A stretch of DNA of 64,000 nt, from positions 1,240,001-1,304,000 of the forward strand of contig NZ_LN831035.1 in assembly GCF_001457655.1 (NCBI RefSeq), in the 5' to 3' direction. This document shows, one piece after another, positions 3,403 to 62,523 of the stretch; the first letter of the stretch is position 1, and each line of letters starts with the position of its first letter. The notes beneath the pieces are model-generated. The model searched no databases and had not been told where the DNA came from. It was given only the letters and a program-made list of their open reading frames with translations. Origin of the DNA: Haemophilus influenzae (GTDB lineage Bacteria; Pseudomonadota; Gammaproteobacteria; Enterobacterales; Pasteurellaceae). A program made the translations under genes and the position numbers.

Positions 3403-4632
3403 ATGACCATCGAAATTCTTGTTCCAGACCTACCTGAATCAGTTGCAGATGCAACTGTTGCCACTTGGCATAAAAAACTGGGCGATACTGTGAAACGTGA
3501 TGAAGTTATTGTGGAAATTGAAACGGATAAAGTCGTGCTAGAAGTCCCAGCACTTTCTGATGGCATACTGGTAGAAGTTGTTCAAGCTGAGGGCGAAACT
3601 GTCGTAAGCAAACAGCTGCTAGGCAAAATTTCTACGGCTCAAGAAGGAGATGTCAGTTCAGCGACGTTAAAAGCAACGAATGAACCCACACCATCTGATC
3701 GTCAAAATTCAGCGATTGAAAATAGTCATAATCATAATGCGGATCAAAGCCCTGCAATTCGTCGTTTATTAGCAGAACATGATTTACAAGCAGATCAAAT
3801 TCAAGGTTCGGGCGTGGGCGGTCGTTTAACACGTGAAGATATTGAACGTGAAATTGCAAAACGACAAGCACAGCAAGTGAAACAAGAAGCTGCCACTGAG
3901 CAAAATACAATTAGTACGGTGGCTTATAGCGCACGTTCTGAAAAACGTGTGCCAATGACCCGTTTGCGTAAACGTATTGCTGAACGTTTACTTGAAGCCA
4001 AAAATAGTACAGCAATGCTTACCACTTTTAATGAAGTGGATATGCAGCCGATAATGACTTTGCGTAAAACCTACGGCGAAAAATTTGAAAAACAACATTC
4101 AGTACGTTTAGGATTTATGTCTTTTTATATCAAAGCGGTTGTGGAAGCATTGAAACGTTATCCTGAAGTTAATGCTTCTATTGATGGGGATGATGTTGTT
4201 TACCATAACTATTTTGATATTAGTATTGCAGTTTCAACTCCGCGTGGATTAGTCACACCAGTGCTTCGTGATTGCGATAAGCTCAGTATGGCAGAGATCG
4301 AAAAACAAATTAAAGCATTAGCTGAAAAAGGTCGTGATGGCAAATTGACTGTAGAAGATCTCACTGGCGGCAATTTTACCATCACAAATGGCGGTGTGTT
4401 TGGTTCTCTTATGTCCACTCCAATTATCAATCCACCACAAAGTGCGATTTTAGGAATGCACGCTATTAAAGAACGCCCGATTGCGCTTAATGGTCAAGTG
4501 GTGATTCGTCCGATGATGTACCTTGCTTTATCTTACGATCATCGTTTAATTGACGGCCGTGAATCTGTTGGTTTCTTGGTAGCGATTAAAGAATTATTGG
4601 AAGATCCAACAAGATTGTTATTAGAAATCTAA
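3403..4632 (+). CDS. sucB: dihydrolipoyllysine succinyltransferase (2-oxoglutarate dehydrogenase E2)
   Basis: E2 core of the 2-oxoglutarate dehydrogenase complex, which moves succinyl groups from SucA to CoA. The 409 residues contain one lipoyl domain (lipoylated Lys43 in [11 protein letters not shown]), a flexible linker, a peripheral-subunit-binding domain around 120-150 ([23 protein letters not shown]) and the catalytic acyltransferase domain. The catalytic domain carries the [11 protein letters not shown] motif near residue 380. The gene is co-directional with sucA, with no terminator between them, so it is probably co-transcribed. Two terminator structures follow the gene. Confidence 0.97.
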
Positions 4633-56727: not shown

Positions 56728-57348
56728 CTACTCACATTGAATTATTATTTTTTGCGCGAACATTACGCCTAAGGAATCATCTTCGTTCTTTTGGGATTTA
56801 TCAAGTGAAGATGCGTAGGCTTGGATTTTTTCATCCACATTAGGTTCAATTAATTTTCCTTGGCAATTTTTCGAAAGTGCGGAAAAATCTACCGCACTTT
56901 TTGAAGCGTAAGTCATCGCCACATAATAAGTGGGATCGTAAGTTTGTAAGCTAAATGTGTTTTTTTCTAACTTTTGCGGATGGGCGAGTGGCACATCAAA
57001 ATAATATTGCAGTTGTAAGCCTTGAACATTAATGCCGTAATTTTTTGGGCGAGGGGAATATTTGATTTTATTATTCTGGGCATCATATAGATAGCTGAAA
57101 TAATGCTCACTGACGATATTTCCCATTACATCATCAAGAAGTTTTTGTTTTTCCGCTTTAGTTCTAGCTTGTTTCATATCATAAATAACTGCAGACGAAC
57201 TTGGTTCATCCAACGTCCATTTCATTGAAAAACCTGTGAGTTGATTATTTTCTATAATGGGCGTGGTTTGTATATCAATAAATGCGTGAGGATGGGCTAA
57301 AACACCAAAACTAATGAATAAACCGAGTAATAATGAATACGTTTTCAC
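56728..57348 (-). CDS. zevA: periplasmic zinc-binding protein ZevA (DUF1007 family)
   Basis: The 206-residue protein has a signal peptide (LLLGLFISFGVLAHPHAF) with cleavage near Ala18, leaving an N-terminal His-x-His. The mature protein is of the DUF1007 type that accompanies NicO transporters: FIDIQTTPIIENNQLTGFSMKWTLDE (shown partly) and the DPTYYVAMTYASK strand. ZevA is described as binding zinc. zevB begins three bases after it. An inverted uptake-signal pair (one arm with one mismatch) also lies inside at 56874-56900. Confidence 0.85.
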   Translation of the reverse strand: MKTYSLLLGLFISFGVLAHPHAFIDIQTTPIIENNQLTGFSMKWTLDEPSSSAVIYDMKQARTKAEKQKLLDDVMGNIVSEHYFSYLYDAQNNKIKYSPRPKNYGINVQGLQLQYYFDVPLAHPQKLEKNTFSLQTYDPTYYVAMTYASKSAVDFSALSKNCQGKLIEPNVDEKIQAYASSLDKSQKNEDDSLGVMFAQKIIIQCE

Positions 57349-57427
57349 AAAAAATCCTATTATTTTGAACGCTAGAATTTGAAGTTGTTTATTCTACACG
57401 CAAAAACGAATTTTTCTGTCAAAAATG

Positions 57428-57441
57428 TTGATGTAAATCAA
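57428..57441. promoter_or_regulatory. FNR/anaerobox site
   Basis: TTGAT-GTAA-ATCAA is a perfect match to the FNR consensus TTGAT-N4-ATCAA. It is 80 bases upstream of zevA (minus strand, possible -10 TAGAAT at 57391-57396) and upstream of the candidate small RNA on the plus strand. Confidence 0.75.
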
Positions 57442-57479
57442 AAAAACTCTCAATAGCATTTCCCTTGCCTTTCAATATT

Positions 57480-57592
57480 CAGTAACATAGCTCCCGTCAA
57501 GTGATTGCTTGATATTCATAAAGTTCCTAAATAAAATAATGATAAATATAGCTAAACTACTTTCCTGCCACCCGTTTCGGGTGGTTTTTTTT
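57480..57592 (+). ncRNA. candidate small RNA with orphan terminator
   Basis: A strong Rho-independent terminator CCACCCG-TTT-CGGGTGG plus eight T (57568-57592) stands on the plus strand with no coding gene before it, because zevA is on the other strand. A possible -10 TAACAT (57483-57488) places an RNA start near 57495, giving about 98 bases, with the FNR site centre about 60 bp upstream. The 5' part can fold (TCAAG pairing with CTTGA, 57497-57512). The A/T-rich middle could hold an Hfq site. By layout it resembles FNR-controlled FnrS, but clear sequence identity is not visible to me. Confidence 0.45.
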
Positions 57593-57606
57593 ATCTAAGT
57601 CGAAAG

Positions 57607-57643
57607 ATGCACTCTTGCATTGTGCATTTATTCTTATTATGAT
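57607..57643 (+). promoter_or_regulatory. higBA promoter and operator-like inverted repeat
   Basis: ATGCAC (57607-57612) and GTGCAT (57622-57627) form an inverted repeat over a -35 (TTGCAT, 57615-57620). It is followed 17 bases later by TATGAT (57638-57643). HigA antitoxins usually repress their own promoter, so this is the likely operator. Confidence 0.5.
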
Positions 57644-57672
57644 CAGCTCGAGTATAACTAAGAGAATAATAG

Positions 57673-57978
57673 ATGTTTAATTTAAAGCGTGAGCATTTTA
57701 GAGATGATTATCTTTATAGGTTTTATCAATATGGTGATACTCATAGTAAGATTCCTTCTAATTTGTATAAAGTATTGGCAAGAAAATTAGATATGATAAG
57801 TGCCTCAGAAAATATCAACGATTTACGTTCTCCACCAGCTAACCATTTGGAGTTGCTTGAGCCAAAAGAAAATAAAATTTATTCTATTCGAGTGAATAAA
57901 CAATATCGTTTAATTTTTAAATATGAAAATAACGAAGTAAATAATTTATATTTAGATCCACATTCTTATAATTTGTAA
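57673..57978 (+). CDS. higB: HigB-family mRNA interferase toxin
   Basis: The 101-residue RelE-superfamily protein has the plasmid-maintenance killer layout: an N-terminal helix pair (residues 25-42, YKVLARKLDMISA), then DLRSPPANHLELLEPKENKIYSIRVNKQYRLIFKY with the basic and aromatic residues of the catalytic face (Arg-Val-Asn-Lys-Gln-Tyr-Arg). HigB cleaves mRNA on the ribosome. The toxin gene precedes the antitoxin gene, the order typical of hig. The stop TAA lies within the antitoxin's Shine-Dalgarno sequence. Confidence 0.88.
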   Translation: MFNLKREHFRDDYLYRFYQYGDTHSKIPSNLYKVLARKLDMISASENINDLRSPPANHLELLEPKENKIYSIRVNKQYRLIFKYENNEVNNLYLDPHSYNL

Positions 57979-57988
57979 GGAGGATAAT

Positions 57989-58312
57989 ATGATGACGAGA
58001 AAACCCACCTCTGTTGGTGAAATTCTACAAGAAGAGTTTTTAGAACCTTTAAGTCTTAAAATTAGTGATTTAGCTCAAATTTTAGATGTACATCGTAATA
58101 CGGCAAGCAATATTGTTAATAATAGTTCACGAATTACGCTAGAAATGGCAGTTAAACTTGCTAAAGTATTTGATACTACGCCTGAGTTTTGGCTTAATCT
58201 GCAAACACGTATTGATTTATGGGACCTTGAACACAATAAACGTTTTCAACAAAGTCTTGCAAATGTTAAGCCCGCTCTACATCGGCATGATACTTCTACA
58301 TTTGCAATGTAA
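57989..58312 (+). CDS. higA: HigA-family antitoxin (helix-turn-helix)
   Basis: The 107-residue protein (106 if the second ATG at 57992 is used, which is better spaced from the perfect TAAGGAGG at 57976-57983) has an XRE-type helix-turn-helix: SVGEILQEEFLEPLSLKIS, LAQILDVHRNTASNIVN, RITLEMAVKLAKVFDTTPEFWLNLQ. It binds and neutralises HigB and represses the operon. The distal C-terminus (KPALHRHDTSTFAM) is flexible. Followed by a terminator that abuts ettA. Confidence 0.9.
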   Translation: MMTRKPTSVGEILQEEFLEPLSLKISDLAQILDVHRNTASNIVNNSSRITLEMAVKLAKVFDTTPEFWLNLQTRIDLWDLEHNKRFQQSLANVKPALHRHDTSTFAM

Positions 58313-58474: not shown

Positions 58475-60145
58475 ATGTCATCTCAATTTGTGTATACGAT
58501 GCATCGTGTCGGCAAAGTAGTGCCGCCGAAGCGTCATATTTTGAAAGATATTTCTTTAAGCTTTTTCCCTGGTGCTAAGATCGGGGTTTTAGGTTTAAAT
58601 GGTGCGGGTAAATCGACTCTTTTACGCATTATGGCAGGCGTAGATAAAGAGTTTGAAGGGGAAGCTCGTCCACAACCGGGTATTAAAATTGGGTATCTTC
58701 CGCAAGAGCCAAAACTCGAGCCACAACAAACCGTGCGTGAAGCAGTGGAAGAAGCGGTTTCTGAAGTGAAAAATGCACTGACTCGTTTAGATGAAGTGTA
58801 TGCGCTTTATGCGGATCCTGATGCAGATTTTGATAAATTAGCGGCAGAACAAGCCAATCTTGAAGCTATCATTCAAGCGCATGATGGGCATAATTTAGAT
58901 AACCAATTAGAGCGTGCGGCAGATGCGTTACGTTTACCTGATTGGGATGCCAAAATTGAACATTTATCTGGTGGTGAGCGTCGCCGAGTGGCACTTTGCC
59001 GCTTATTACTCGAAAAACCAGATATGTTGTTGTTAGATGAACCAACTAACCACTTAGATGCGGAATCTGTGGCGTGGTTAGAGCGATTCTTACACGACTA
59101 CGAGGGTACAGTGGTAGCAATCACTCACGACCGTTATTTCTTAGATAATGTGGCTGGTTGGATCTTAGAGCTTGACCGTGGCGAGGGCATTCCTTGGGAA
59201 GGCAACTATTCTTCTTGGTTAGAGCAAAAAGAGAAACGTTTAGAACAAGAACAAGCAACTGAAAACGCACGTCAAAAATCCATTGCGAAAGAGTTAGAAT
59301 GGGTTCGTCAAAATCCAAAAGGTCGCCAAGCGAAAAGCAAAGCACGTATGGCTCGTTTTGATGAATTGAACTCTGGCGAATATCAAAAACGAAACGAGAC
59401 GAACGAACTCTTTATTCCACCTGGCCCACGCTTAGGCGATAAAGTGATTGAAGTGCAAAACTTAACCAAGTCTTATGGCGACCGCACTTTAATTGATGAT
59501 TTATCATTCAGTATTCCAAAAGGGGCAATTGTTGGGATTATCGGAGCGAACGGTGCAGGTAAATCAACCTTATTCCGTATGTTGTCAGGTCAAGAACAAC
59601 CAGATTCAGGTTCTGTGACAATGGGCGAAACCGTTGTGCTTGCTTCGGTAGATCAGTTCCGTGACTCAATGGATGACAAGAAAACTGTGTGGGAAGAAGT
59701 GTCTAATGGACAAGACATTCTTACTATCGGCAACTTTGAAATTCCAAGCCGTGCTTATGTGGGGCGTTTCAACTTCAAAGGTGTAGATCAACAAAAACGT
59801 GTGGGGGAATTATCGGGCGGTGAACGTGGTCGTTTACACTTAGCGAAACTTCTACAACGTGGTGGTAACGTGCTATTACTGGACGAACCAACCAATGACT
59901 TAGATGTTGAAACCTTGCGTGCCTTAGAAAATGCGATCTTAGAATTCCCAGGCTGTGCAATGGTTATTTCGCACGACCGTTGGTTCTTAGACCGTATCGC
60001 AACGCATATTTTAGACTACGGCGATGAAGGTAAAGTCACGTTCTATGAAGGTAACTTCTCAGACTACGAAGAGTGGAAAAAGAAAACCTTAGGCGATGCA
60101 GCCACTCAGCCACATCGTATTAAATATAAACGTATTGCGAAGTAA
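58475..60145 (+). CDS. ettA: energy-dependent translational throttle protein EttA (ABC-F)
   Basis: The 556-residue ABC-F ATPase binds the ribosomal E site and gates entry into elongation by ATP/ADP level. It has two ABC domains: Walker A GLNGAGKSTL (near 40) and GANGAGKSTL (near 358), signature LSGGERRRVAL and LSGGERGRLHL, Walker B LLLDEPTNHLD and LLLDEPTNDLD. An EttA-type arm insert and a charged linker (LEQKEKRLEQEQATENARQ) lie between them. Length matches E. coli EttA (555). Promoter probably within 58363-58422; transcription would then start inside or just before the terminator hairpin. Confidence 0.96.
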   Translation: MSSQFVYTMHRVGKVVPPKRHILKDISLSFFPGAKIGVLGLNGAGKSTLLRIMAGVDKEFEGEARPQPGIKIGYLPQEPKLEPQQTVREAVEEAVSEVKNALTRLDEVYALYADPDADFDKLAAEQANLEAIIQAHDGHNLDNQLERAADALRLPDWDAKIEHLSGGERRRVALCRLLLEKPDMLLLDEPTNHLDAESVAWLERFLHDYEGTVVAITHDRYFLDNVAGWILELDRGEGIPWEGNYSSWLEQKEKRLEQEQATENARQKSIAKELEWVRQNPKGRQAKSKARMARFDELNSGEYQKRNETNELFIPPGPRLGDKVIEVQNLTKSYGDRTLIDDLSFSIPKGAIVGIIGANGAGKSTLFRMLSGQEQPDSGSVTMGETVVLASVDQFRDSMDDKKTVWEEVSNGQDILTIGNFEIPSRAYVGRFNFKGVDQQKRVGELSGGERGRLHLAKLLQRGGNVLLLDEPTNDLDVETLRALENAILEFPGCAMVISHDRWFLDRIATHILDYGDEGKVTFYEGNFSDYEEWKKKTLGDAATQPHRIKYKRIAK

Positions 60146-60552: not shown

Positions 60553-62523
60553 ATGTCATCTCGCCAGCTTCAAATTTTAATCTGCAAAACTTTGCCGCTT
60601 GTGCCTGATAACGTATTAATTATCGGCGAAAGTGGCATTGCTTTTTCTAAAGCAACGAATTTGCTTGGACAAGAATTTGAACATATCTTATTTGATGCGC
60701 GAAATGGCATTCATCTTGAAGCGCTGGCTATTGCAGCTGGAACACTGAAAATGGGCGGCACACTTTGTTTAGTGTTATCTGATTGGGAAAATTTATCTCA
60801 GCAGCCTGATCAAGATAGTTTACGTTGGAATGGAAATCAGTCAGCAATCGCCACGCCTAATTTTATTGATCATTTCAAACAGTGCATTGAACGTTATCAT
60901 TTCCCCATTTTAAGAGAGGAAAGTGCGGTTGAATTTCCTACGGTTTTTTATTCTAACGAACATCACAAAAATGCTACGTTAGCGCAACAACAAATTATCG
61001 AGACTATTTTACAAGCCGAGCAGGATATTTATTTTCTAACCTCCAAGCGGGGAAGAGGAAAATCCGCATTATTGGGTATGCTTGCTAACCAAATTCAAGC
61101 ACCAGTTTATCTCACCGCACCGAATAAAAGTGCGGTGCATTCCGTTATTGAATTTTCAGAACGAGAGATAGAATTTATCGCGCCTGATGAACTGGCTATT
61201 CGGTTACAACATGAACCAGAATTCAGTCAATCAGCTTGGTTGCTGGTAGATGAAGCGGCGGTAATCCCATTGCCGTTATTGCAAGAATATTCTCAATATT
61301 TTCAACATATTGTCTTCAGCACAACAATTCATAGCTATGAAGGTACGGGGCGTGGTTTCGAATTAAAATTTAAACGGAAAATTCACCGCACTTTTCAGCA
61401 TTTTGAGCTTAAACAGCCCCTACGTTGGCAAGAAAATGACCCGTTAGAACATTTTATTGATGATCTTTTGTTGCTAAATGCCGAAGATGATTTTCAGCAC
61501 TTTGACTATAACAATATTACTTATAACATAGAGGAAAACGCTAAAAATCTTTCCTTCCCCTGCTTGCGGGGGAAGGTGCCCGAAGGGCGGAAGGGGGATT
61601 TAGATATAGCCAGCCTCCCTCAAGCTTTGGAAGCTCCCCTCACAAGTAAGGGTAGTAAAGGAAAATATAATCGTCAATTTTTATTTCGAGATTTTTATGG
61701 CTTAATGACATTGGCGCATTATCGAACATCGCCACTCGATCTTCGCCGTTTACTTGATGGAGAAAATCAACGTTTTTATTTTGCCGAATATCAACAGAAT
61801 TTGCTCGGTGCAATTTGGGCATTAGAAGAAGGAAATATGGCTGATGATGAGTTGATTATTCAAATTCAACAAGGCAAACGCCGCCCGAAAGGGAATCTTG
61901 TTCCACAGGCGTTATGTTTCTATGAAAACTTGCCTCAAGCCTGTAAATTACGATCTTTACGTATTTCTCGTATAGCGGTTCAGCCAAATTGGCAGCAAAA
62001 GGGCATTGGGCAAAATTTGATGCAAGCCATGGAAAATGCCGATGTGGATTTTCTTTCAGTGAGTTTTGGCTACACCGACGAACTGGCAAAATTTTGGCAA
62101 AAGTGCGGTTTTGTTTTGGTGCATTTAGGCGAGCATCAAGAAGCGAGTAGTGGTTGTTATTCAGCGATTGCCCTTAAAGGACTTTCCAAAGAAGGCTTGG
62201 CTTTAGTTGATACTGCGTACAAACAATTTCAGCGTAATCTCCCTTTATCTTTTCATCCGTTTGCCATAAATTTTGAGCAAAATCAGCTTGATTGGCAGCT
62301 TGATGATTTTGATTGGATGAGCTTAAAAAACTTCGCTAATTTTCACCGCACTTTATTTTCGAGCGTTCCTGCGATGAGGCGTTTATTAAAATTAGCGGGC
62401 AAAGAAAATTTCCCATTAATTTCCGCTTATTTAACAAAAAAACAACTTCCTATTAACAAGAAAAAAGGCGTAGAATGTTTGCGTTTAGAAATTAAACAAT
62501 ATTTAGAGCGAGGAACTTTATGA
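60553..62523 (+). CDS. tmcA: tRNA(Met) cytidine acetyltransferase
   Basis: Acetylates the wobble cytidine of elongator tRNA-Met using acetyl-CoA and ATP. The 656 residues contain an N-terminal region (1-130), a RecD-like helicase domain with P-loop LTSKRGRGKSALLGM (near 165) and WLLVDEAAVIPLPLL (near 230), then a GNAT domain (RSLRISRIAVQPNWQQKGIGQNLM near 475) and a tRNA-binding tail. About 40 residues near 330-372 (SFPCLRGKVPEGRKG through SKGSKGKY) are encoded by a palindromic DNA insertion and look unlike the rest. The stop overlaps the next start. Confidence 0.93.
   Translation: MSSRQLQILICKTLPLVPDNVLIIGESGIAFSKATNLLGQEFEHILFDARNGIHLEALAIAAGTLKMGGTLCLVLSDWENLSQQPDQDSLRWNGNQSAIATPNFIDHFKQCIERYHFPILREESAVEFPTVFYSNEHHKNATLAQQQIIETILQAEQDIYFLTSKRGRGKSALLGMLANQIQAPVYLTAPNKSAVHSVIEFSEREIEFIAPDELAIRLQHEPEFSQSAWLLVDEAAVIPLPLLQEYSQYFQHIVFSTTIHSYEGTGRGFELKFKRKIHRTFQHFELKQPLRWQENDPLEHFIDDLLLLNAEDDFQHFDYNNITYNIEENAKNLSFPCLRGKVPEGRKGDLDIASLPQALEAPLTSKGSKGKYNRQFLFRDFYGLMTLAHYRTSPLDLRRLLDGENQRFYFAEYQQNLLGAIWALEEGNMADDELIIQIQQGKRRPKGNLVPQALCFYENLPQACKLRSLRISRIAVQPNWQQKGIGQNLMQAMENADVDFLSVSFGYTDELAKFWQKCGFVLVHLGEHQEASSGCYSAIALKGLSKEGLALVDTAYKQFQRNLPLSFHPFAINFEQNQLDWQLDDFDWMSLKNFANFHRTLFSSVPAMRRLLKLAGKENFPLISAYLTKKQLPINKKKGVECLRLEIKQYLERGTL
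61546..61668 (+). repeat. palindromic element inserted in frame in tmcA
   Basis: CCTTCCCC-TGCTTG-CG-GGGGAAGG (61553-61576) and GCCC-GAA-GGGC (61578-61588) are back-to-back hairpins of high G+C inside an AT-rich gene. They are followed by further C/T- and G/A-rich runs to about 61668. The segment keeps the reading frame open and adds about 40 low-complexity basic residues. Confidence 0.7.

Follow-up and report, generated by a model that had tools for sequence, protein, structure and literature searches.

Does the gap between the divergent DUF1007 protein gene (zevA) and the higBA genes of Haemophilus influenzae encode a small RNA, and would such an RNA be controlled by FNR? The gap lies in a stretch of 64,000 nucleotides, analysed here as a whole (hereafter the window), from a genome of 1,890,645 bases. 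An earlier note on the window had placed here, in this order, a perfect FNR box, a possible start near 57495, a foldable 5′ end and a terminator with eight T, with no protein gene between them. The box and the terminator were located, a 5′ hairpin was predicted (Table 1), and no listed open reading frame (ORF) of at least 40 amino acids overlaps the gap (57349–57672). The box is the single perfect FNR box in the window, where 0.20 are expected. Since 20 of 100 shuffled windows hold at least one, the FNR box on its own is not significant. Judged by comparison among genomes, it is the conservation of the locus, not the box alone, that lifts it above chance. The comparison strongly supports a distinct small RNA whose FNR site is conserved and of class I type, as the earlier note had proposed. 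At the sequence level it establishes an RNA family, its structure, a promoter of constant layout, and a gene that does not depend on its neighbors. We regard the locus as that of a genuine and well-conserved small RNA, probably activated by FNR and probably acting by base pairing.

Table 1 Features of the locus in window coordinates. Identities are mean pairwise values over 75 distinct RNAs.
Feature	Position	Strand	Remarks
DUF1007 protein gene (zevA of the earlier note)	56728..57348	-	Left neighbor, divergent; PF06226; beside the RNA in 69/83 loci
FNR-type box TTGATGTAAATCAA	57428..57441	placed to drive + strand RNA	Near-palindromic, perfect; right half ATCAA in 71/80 distinct promoters
-10 hexamer TAACAT	57483..57488	+	TANNAT across the family; TANNNT at fixed distance from the site
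Small RNA, about 97-98 nt	57495..57592	+	Predicted start 57495 or 57496; conservation and covariance model R1
5′ hairpin GTCAAGT-GATT-GCTTGAT	57496..57513	+	Its 6 modelled pairs are present in 99.6% of cells
Block 1 ATTCATAAAGTTCCTAAATAAAATA	57514..57538	+	Nearly invariant, unpaired; proposed main pairing region; identity 0.977
Block 2 ATAGCTAAACTACTTTCCT	57548..57566	+	Nearly invariant, unpaired; proposed second pairing region; identity 0.983
Intrinsic terminator GCCACCCG-TTT-CGGGTGGT with T8	57567..57592	+	Stem of 8 pairs followed by eight T
HigB-like toxin and HigA antitoxin genes (higBA)	57673..58312	+	PF05015, TIGR02607; optional insert between RNA and ettA; 7/83 loci
ettA	58475..60145	+	NF008775 EttA; usual right-hand neighbor; downstream of the RNA in 73/83 loci

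In a blastn search of 61 genomes with a 165-base query, 21 genomes were matched: 8 of the genus, 12 of the 29 other family members, and one genome of another family (G040), whose 22-base match is not this RNA. Within the Pasteurellaceae, 20 of 37 genomes matched. Among the 13 matching genomes outside the genus, 8 matches begin at query positions 66–81 (57493–57508), consistent with the predicted start near 57495; 4 begin earlier (1–55), and the last is that of G040. All but two of the 12 non-genus family matches extend to the last query base. In the aligned loci, the two blocks are almost unchanged, and conservation runs from about 57495 to 57592. A covariance model built from 20 loci (R1) matched 84 of 140 Pasteurellaceae genomes in 21 of 43 genera, with one full copy each, while the other 56 genomes gave no R1 match with the stricter filters of Infernal. 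The genome of the window has a single R1 match, at the present locus, and an order-wide sample of 197 genomes gave 8 matches, all 8 in Pasteurellaceae. The exact two-block pattern occurs in 54 records of a collection of 84,980 species, with Haemophilus, Aggregatibacter, Pasteurella, Avibacterium and Rodentibacter among the genera. We take the names of these records to be those of Pasteurellaceae, except for one titled Pseudomonas stutzeri NCTC11607 (L376, CABDVE010000001.1), which appears to be a mislabelled Pasteurellaceae genome. Viral contigs contained no match to a 24-base part of block 1, and no Rfam family at gathering score covers the RNA, whether in the window or at 8 loci from other species. 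On the evidence of these searches, the RNA family is specific to the Pasteurellaceae.

The segment 57493–57592 is predicted to fold with −20.1 kcal/mol (z −2.28) into two elements, the 5′ hairpin and the terminator. While both blocks are nearly invariant among the 75 distinct RNAs, mean pairwise identity is 0.789 in the 5′ part and 0.630 in the terminator stem and loop. Predicted folds leave block 1 unpaired at 22 or more of 24 bases in 66 of 73 cases, and block 2 at 13 or more of 15 bases in 65 of 72. Across the same 75 RNAs, the 12 modelled pairs are formed in 95.9% of cells, compared with 87.3% in shuffles and 33.7–51.8% in slid controls, and 74 cells are changed on both sides of a pair compared with 22.7 in shuffles; these counts rest on an alignment fitted to the same structure, which favours it. 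Changes on both sides were found in five of the six modelled pairs of the terminator, and a run of at least six T lies near the 3′ end of all 75 RNAs. Conservation that is higher in unpaired blocks than in stems, together with compensatory changes in the stems, is the pattern of a base-pairing small RNA, and the two mostly unpaired blocks would represent the conserved seeds of a trans-acting one. The 3′ end is U-rich and may bind Hfq. A peptide-coding RNA was considered and rejected: an ATG of any kind occurs in 18 of 75 RNAs, a closed ORF of at least 15 amino acids (starting with ATG, GTG or TTG) in 9 of 75, and no ORF is conserved. A protein product thus seems unlikely.

The promoter was compared in 84 loci, of which L041 was lost to a contig end; the remainder represents 80 distinct promoters. 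The −10 element has the form TANNAT in 78 of 80 promoters, and no −35 element is evident in the alignment of loci. The spacing between the FNR-type site and TANNNT is identical in 71 of 80 promoters and varies by at most 1 bp in 79; L018 has no recognisable site, yet it is among the 79 promoters with TANNNT at the fixed distance. The box is centred at 57434.5, that is, at −60.5 or −61.5 for a +1 at 57495 or 57496, which is the class I position; this refines the distance of about 60 bp given in the earlier note. The FNR-type site has 0 or 1 mismatch to TTGATNNNNATCAA in 67 of 80 promoters (L041 is excluded, its 0-mismatch entry being void, and L185 and L186 are not counted). With regard to an FNR-dependent promoter like that of FnrS, the loci show a conserved FNR-type site at a fixed distance, and control of the RNA by FNR is probable.

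The half-sites bear on the identity of the activator. On the right, nearer to the promoter, 71 of 80 sites read ATCAA, as is typical of FNR. On the left, 49 of 80 have TTGAT or TTGAC, but 23 of 80 have GTGAT or GTGAC, and the latter is a CRP-type half, the CRP consensus being GTGA-type. Activation by CRP is also commonly exerted from a class I position near −61.5. Since GTGA left half-sites occur in some genera, a role of CRP is conceivable there. We nevertheless consider it unlikely that the main activator of this RNA is CRP, or CRP together with FNR, so that carbon supply would govern the RNA no less than oxygen does, given the predominant FNR-type halves and the perfect FNR box in the window itself.

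FnrS is an FNR-controlled RNA of E. coli, and the earlier note had recognized the plan of FnrS in this locus. The plan holds as an analogy, and the RNA probably works like FnrS, but sequence homology was not found. The FnrS model RF01796 detected nothing in 37 Pasteurellaceae genomes, with a positive E. coli control and stricter filters, and no match up to E 5 in 57340–57680; the RNA thus falls outside the family as delimited by the gathering score. In the opposite direction, R1 gave three matches on two FnrS loci with 8.2–8.8 bits (E 3.2–4.2), which is chance level. The second of these overlaps FnrS itself in L023 (8.4 bits, E 3.8). This overlap, the equal size, the FNR-type promoter, the terminator and a short resemblance in the 5′ part (GTCAAGTGAT / GTCAAGCGAT) are what a true FnrS orthologue, diverged beyond detection and moved, might have left behind. 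However, a score of 8.4 bits is at noise level, the hairpin that holds the resemblance belongs to the less conserved portion of the present RNA, and blocks 1 and 2 have no match by eye in the two FnrS sequences. Such an origin is quite improbable in our view, and the identity of the RNA with FnrS is not supported by the sequences.

Neighboring genes were counted in 83 loci (L186 was left out). The position between zevA and higBA given in the earlier note is correct for the window, but higBA is not the usual right side, which is ettA. The location of ettA, downstream on the same strand in most loci, would be consistent with a cis-acting leader or attenuator of ettA instead of a trans-acting RNA. 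Against this, higBA can intervene between the two, and the predicted fold of the RNA in the window has no pairing that competes with the terminator. A cis-acting leader always precedes the gene that it controls, whereas ettA is absent within about 1.5 kb of the RNA in 10 of 83 loci. In three of the loci (L020, L187 and L188), neither zevA nor ettA lies within 1.5 kb, and the RNA is kept together with an FNR-type site (2, 0 and 0 mismatches to TTGATNNNNATCAA, respectively). In 29 ettA-upstream loci from genomes without the RNA (one with only 91 bases before ettA, and one with its start taken by position), blastn with the RNA consensus found nothing better than E 0.13. Since three loci keep the RNA and its site without either usual neighbor, the RNA gene stands alone. 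The earlier note had suggested that the box may also act on zevAB; box and RNA persist in loci without zevA within about 1.5 kb, so that the RNA, at any rate, can claim the box as its own. These three loci, together with the lack of a match upstream of ettA in the 29 loci, indicate that the RNA does not serve as a leader of ettA and is not linked to zevAB either; we regard the leader as very improbable. The locus has the makeup of a free-standing unit with its own promoter and Rho-independent terminator, which, as far as the genomes compared here tell, is missing at its usual place in part of the Pasteurellaceae.

The DNA between the RNA and ettA is variable. The higBA genes at this spot are confined to some Haemophilus genomes, and G107 carries a diverged version of higBA at the same spot with 40% and 73% identity. 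Because of this patchy occurrence and the diverged version, the spot looks like an exchangeable insertion site. In G095, an extra copy of the 3′ half (L180, G095:C2:140493-140581), consisting of the end of block 2 and the terminator and weakly matched by R1, is found some 1.5 kb further downstream than the full copy; the arrangement resembles a duplication on either side of DNA that was inserted between the RNA gene and ettA.

The complement of block 1, TTTAGGAACTTTATGAAT, reads like a ribosome-binding site followed by a start codon, and that of block 2 begins AGGAAAGT. In the own genome, the two block-complement patterns occur at 153 and 123 places compared with 181 and 147 for the reversed patterns, showing no enrichment. 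The pattern AGGAAHKTN{0,9}ATG was found at 75 places compared with 38 for its reverse, an excess that any ribosome-binding-site pattern would give. Across 37 genomes, AGGAACTTTN{0,6}ATG was found at 105 places, including the complement of the RNA itself, compared with 90 for the reverse. Exact complementarity to 12 bases of block 1 (AGGAACTTTATG) was observed at 62511–62522, at the ribosome-binding site and start of a gene for a 57-residue DUF5363 protein. Two further genes are preceded by this 12-mer, one membrane transporter-like (G000:C1:294249) and one SfsA-like (G000:C1:1648586), both named by eye.

Duplex energies were scored for 72 of the 75 places, omitting the complement of the RNA itself, one double count and one further place. 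The best of the 72 is the pflA leader, with a predicted −28.9 kcal/mol and pairing with both blocks. Neither the 12,747 windows scanned across the 64 kb (the RNA's own complement omitted) nor 2000 shuffles each way gave a duplex that reached this energy. pflA also ranked first of 921 roughly called start regions, which came from the window, from 40 stretches and from the deliberately included pflA locus and cover under half of the genome. We then compared 80 pflA leaders (60 plus 20 of 30 loci, from 139 matches). The block TTTAGCTA, which is the match to block 2, is present in 18 of the 80 (9/10 of g1, 4/5 of g29, 3/5 of g65 and 2/5 of g55). It is absent from all 27 other pflA leaders of genomes that lack the RNA, but L255, among the g65 leaders with the block, belongs to a genome (G154) that likewise has no R1 match. 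Since the block is missing in most other RNA-bearing genera, pflA was rejected as a family-wide target, the pairing not being kept beyond close relatives. One g55 leader (L260, G079:C1:723922-724232) does not differ from the H. influenzae leader at any of the 90 bases compared, which suggests transfer or contamination.

Genes of the isc operon also ranked high among the 921 start regions: iscS was 11th on the whole linker, iscR 8th and iscA 12th on block 1, and iscU 6th on block 2. In 29 of the 30 genomes asked for (20 with the RNA and 9 without), mean z values with and without the RNA were −1.30 and −0.63 for iscR, −1.11 and −0.93 for iscS, −1.22 and −0.23 for iscU, and −0.81 and −1.20 for iscA (19 versus 9). 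The isc operon is not convincing as a target, as no clear difference separates genomes with and without the RNA. Among the candidates examined, no target with conserved complementarity was found: the pairing with pflA is limited to close relatives, and isc gave no clear signal. This outcome would be expected if the RNA acted through protein binding, as a sponge or 6S-like RNA, instead of base pairing, a reading to which we give scarcely any weight, since conservation is concentrated in the unpaired blocks, not the stems, and the consensus lacks GGA, the core of CsrA sites.

We consider it likely that the locus encodes a free-standing Pasteurellaceae small RNA that is activated by FNR and blocks translation anaerobically by base pairing through its two blocks. 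We infer its transcription, targets and direction of regulation as follows. Oxygen-free FNR would bind the box at 57428–57441, about 61 bp upstream of the start, and activate, in a class I arrangement, a promoter in which a −10 element is present and a −35 element is not evident. RNA polymerase would then produce an RNA of about 97 nt ending at the Rho-independent terminator, the U tail of which would load Hfq, and the two nearly invariant single-stranded blocks would pair with mRNAs. The complements of the blocks, of which the first resembles a ribosome-binding site plus start codon and the second begins with AGGAAAGT, make it probable that such pairing usually prevents translation and that several mRNAs are affected in this way during anaerobic growth. 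With blocks as conserved as these, both the targets and the mechanism can be tested directly in a laboratory strain.

The RNA is apparently undescribed so far. A literature search that included the exact blocks found no description of it, most subscription papers and all supplements being beyond reach, and the exact block sequences occur in no paper text searched. The RNA is not described in PMC11128658, nor in the accessible parts of PMC4986893, PMC4144887, PMC3262788 and PMC10204968. The accessible text of PMC4144887 reports a Fur-controlled small RNA in Pasteurellaceae, HrrF, and mentions 86 intergenic transcripts that are listed in its supplement; this list may well contain the present RNA. 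Transcript lists for Pasteurellaceae are also given in PMC3262788 and PMC10204968, as far as their text is accessible. One row of a table in the latter, HS9 of H. somni (class C, between HSM_0081 and HSM_0082), looked possible, and was rejected because the printed primers and probe do not match. In A. pleuropneumoniae, trans-acting small RNAs did not differ evidently between aerobic and anaerobic growth except for one extra Arrc10 band, according to the accessible part of PMC4986893. In the accessible parts of these four papers (PMC4144887, PMC3262788, PMC10204968 and PMC4986893), no RNA links oxygen to post-transcriptional control. If the present reading is true, an FNR-type RNA common to Haemophilus, Aggregatibacter, Pasteurella, Avibacterium and Rodentibacter would fill this gap in oxygen control.

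Among known RNAs, HrrF is similar in its length of about 97 nt, its intergenic location and its restriction to Pasteurellaceae, and differs in its control by Fur and iron and in its location between pmbA and hpt, as far as the accessible text of PMC4144887 describes it; the sole R1 match in the genome of the window is at the present locus. AaHKsRNA20 (RF02898), a small RNA of Aggregatibacter, is likewise a Pasteurellaceae RNA with a similar terminator context. Its model scores 17.4 bits at the present RNA compared with a cut-off of 43, and in L382 a true AaHKsRNA20 match (503–582) lies apart from the present RNA (3723–3768). FnrS of enterobacteria (RF01796, listed as frnS) shares a length of about 100–120 nt, a 5′ hairpin, an unpaired middle and a strong terminator. 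It differs in the FNR site, which is at about −41.5 in E. coli and about −61 here, and in its conserved blocks, with no significant sequence match in either direction; the neighbors of the present RNA are zevA and ettA. We lean slightly toward the view that this RNA is an oxygen-responsive hub of the Pasteurellaceae unrelated to FnrS, driven by FNR and with a separate set of mRNAs for each block, an independent invention that replaces FnrS. The RNA family offers a comparison case for the origin of the FNR-to-sRNA circuit of FnrS.
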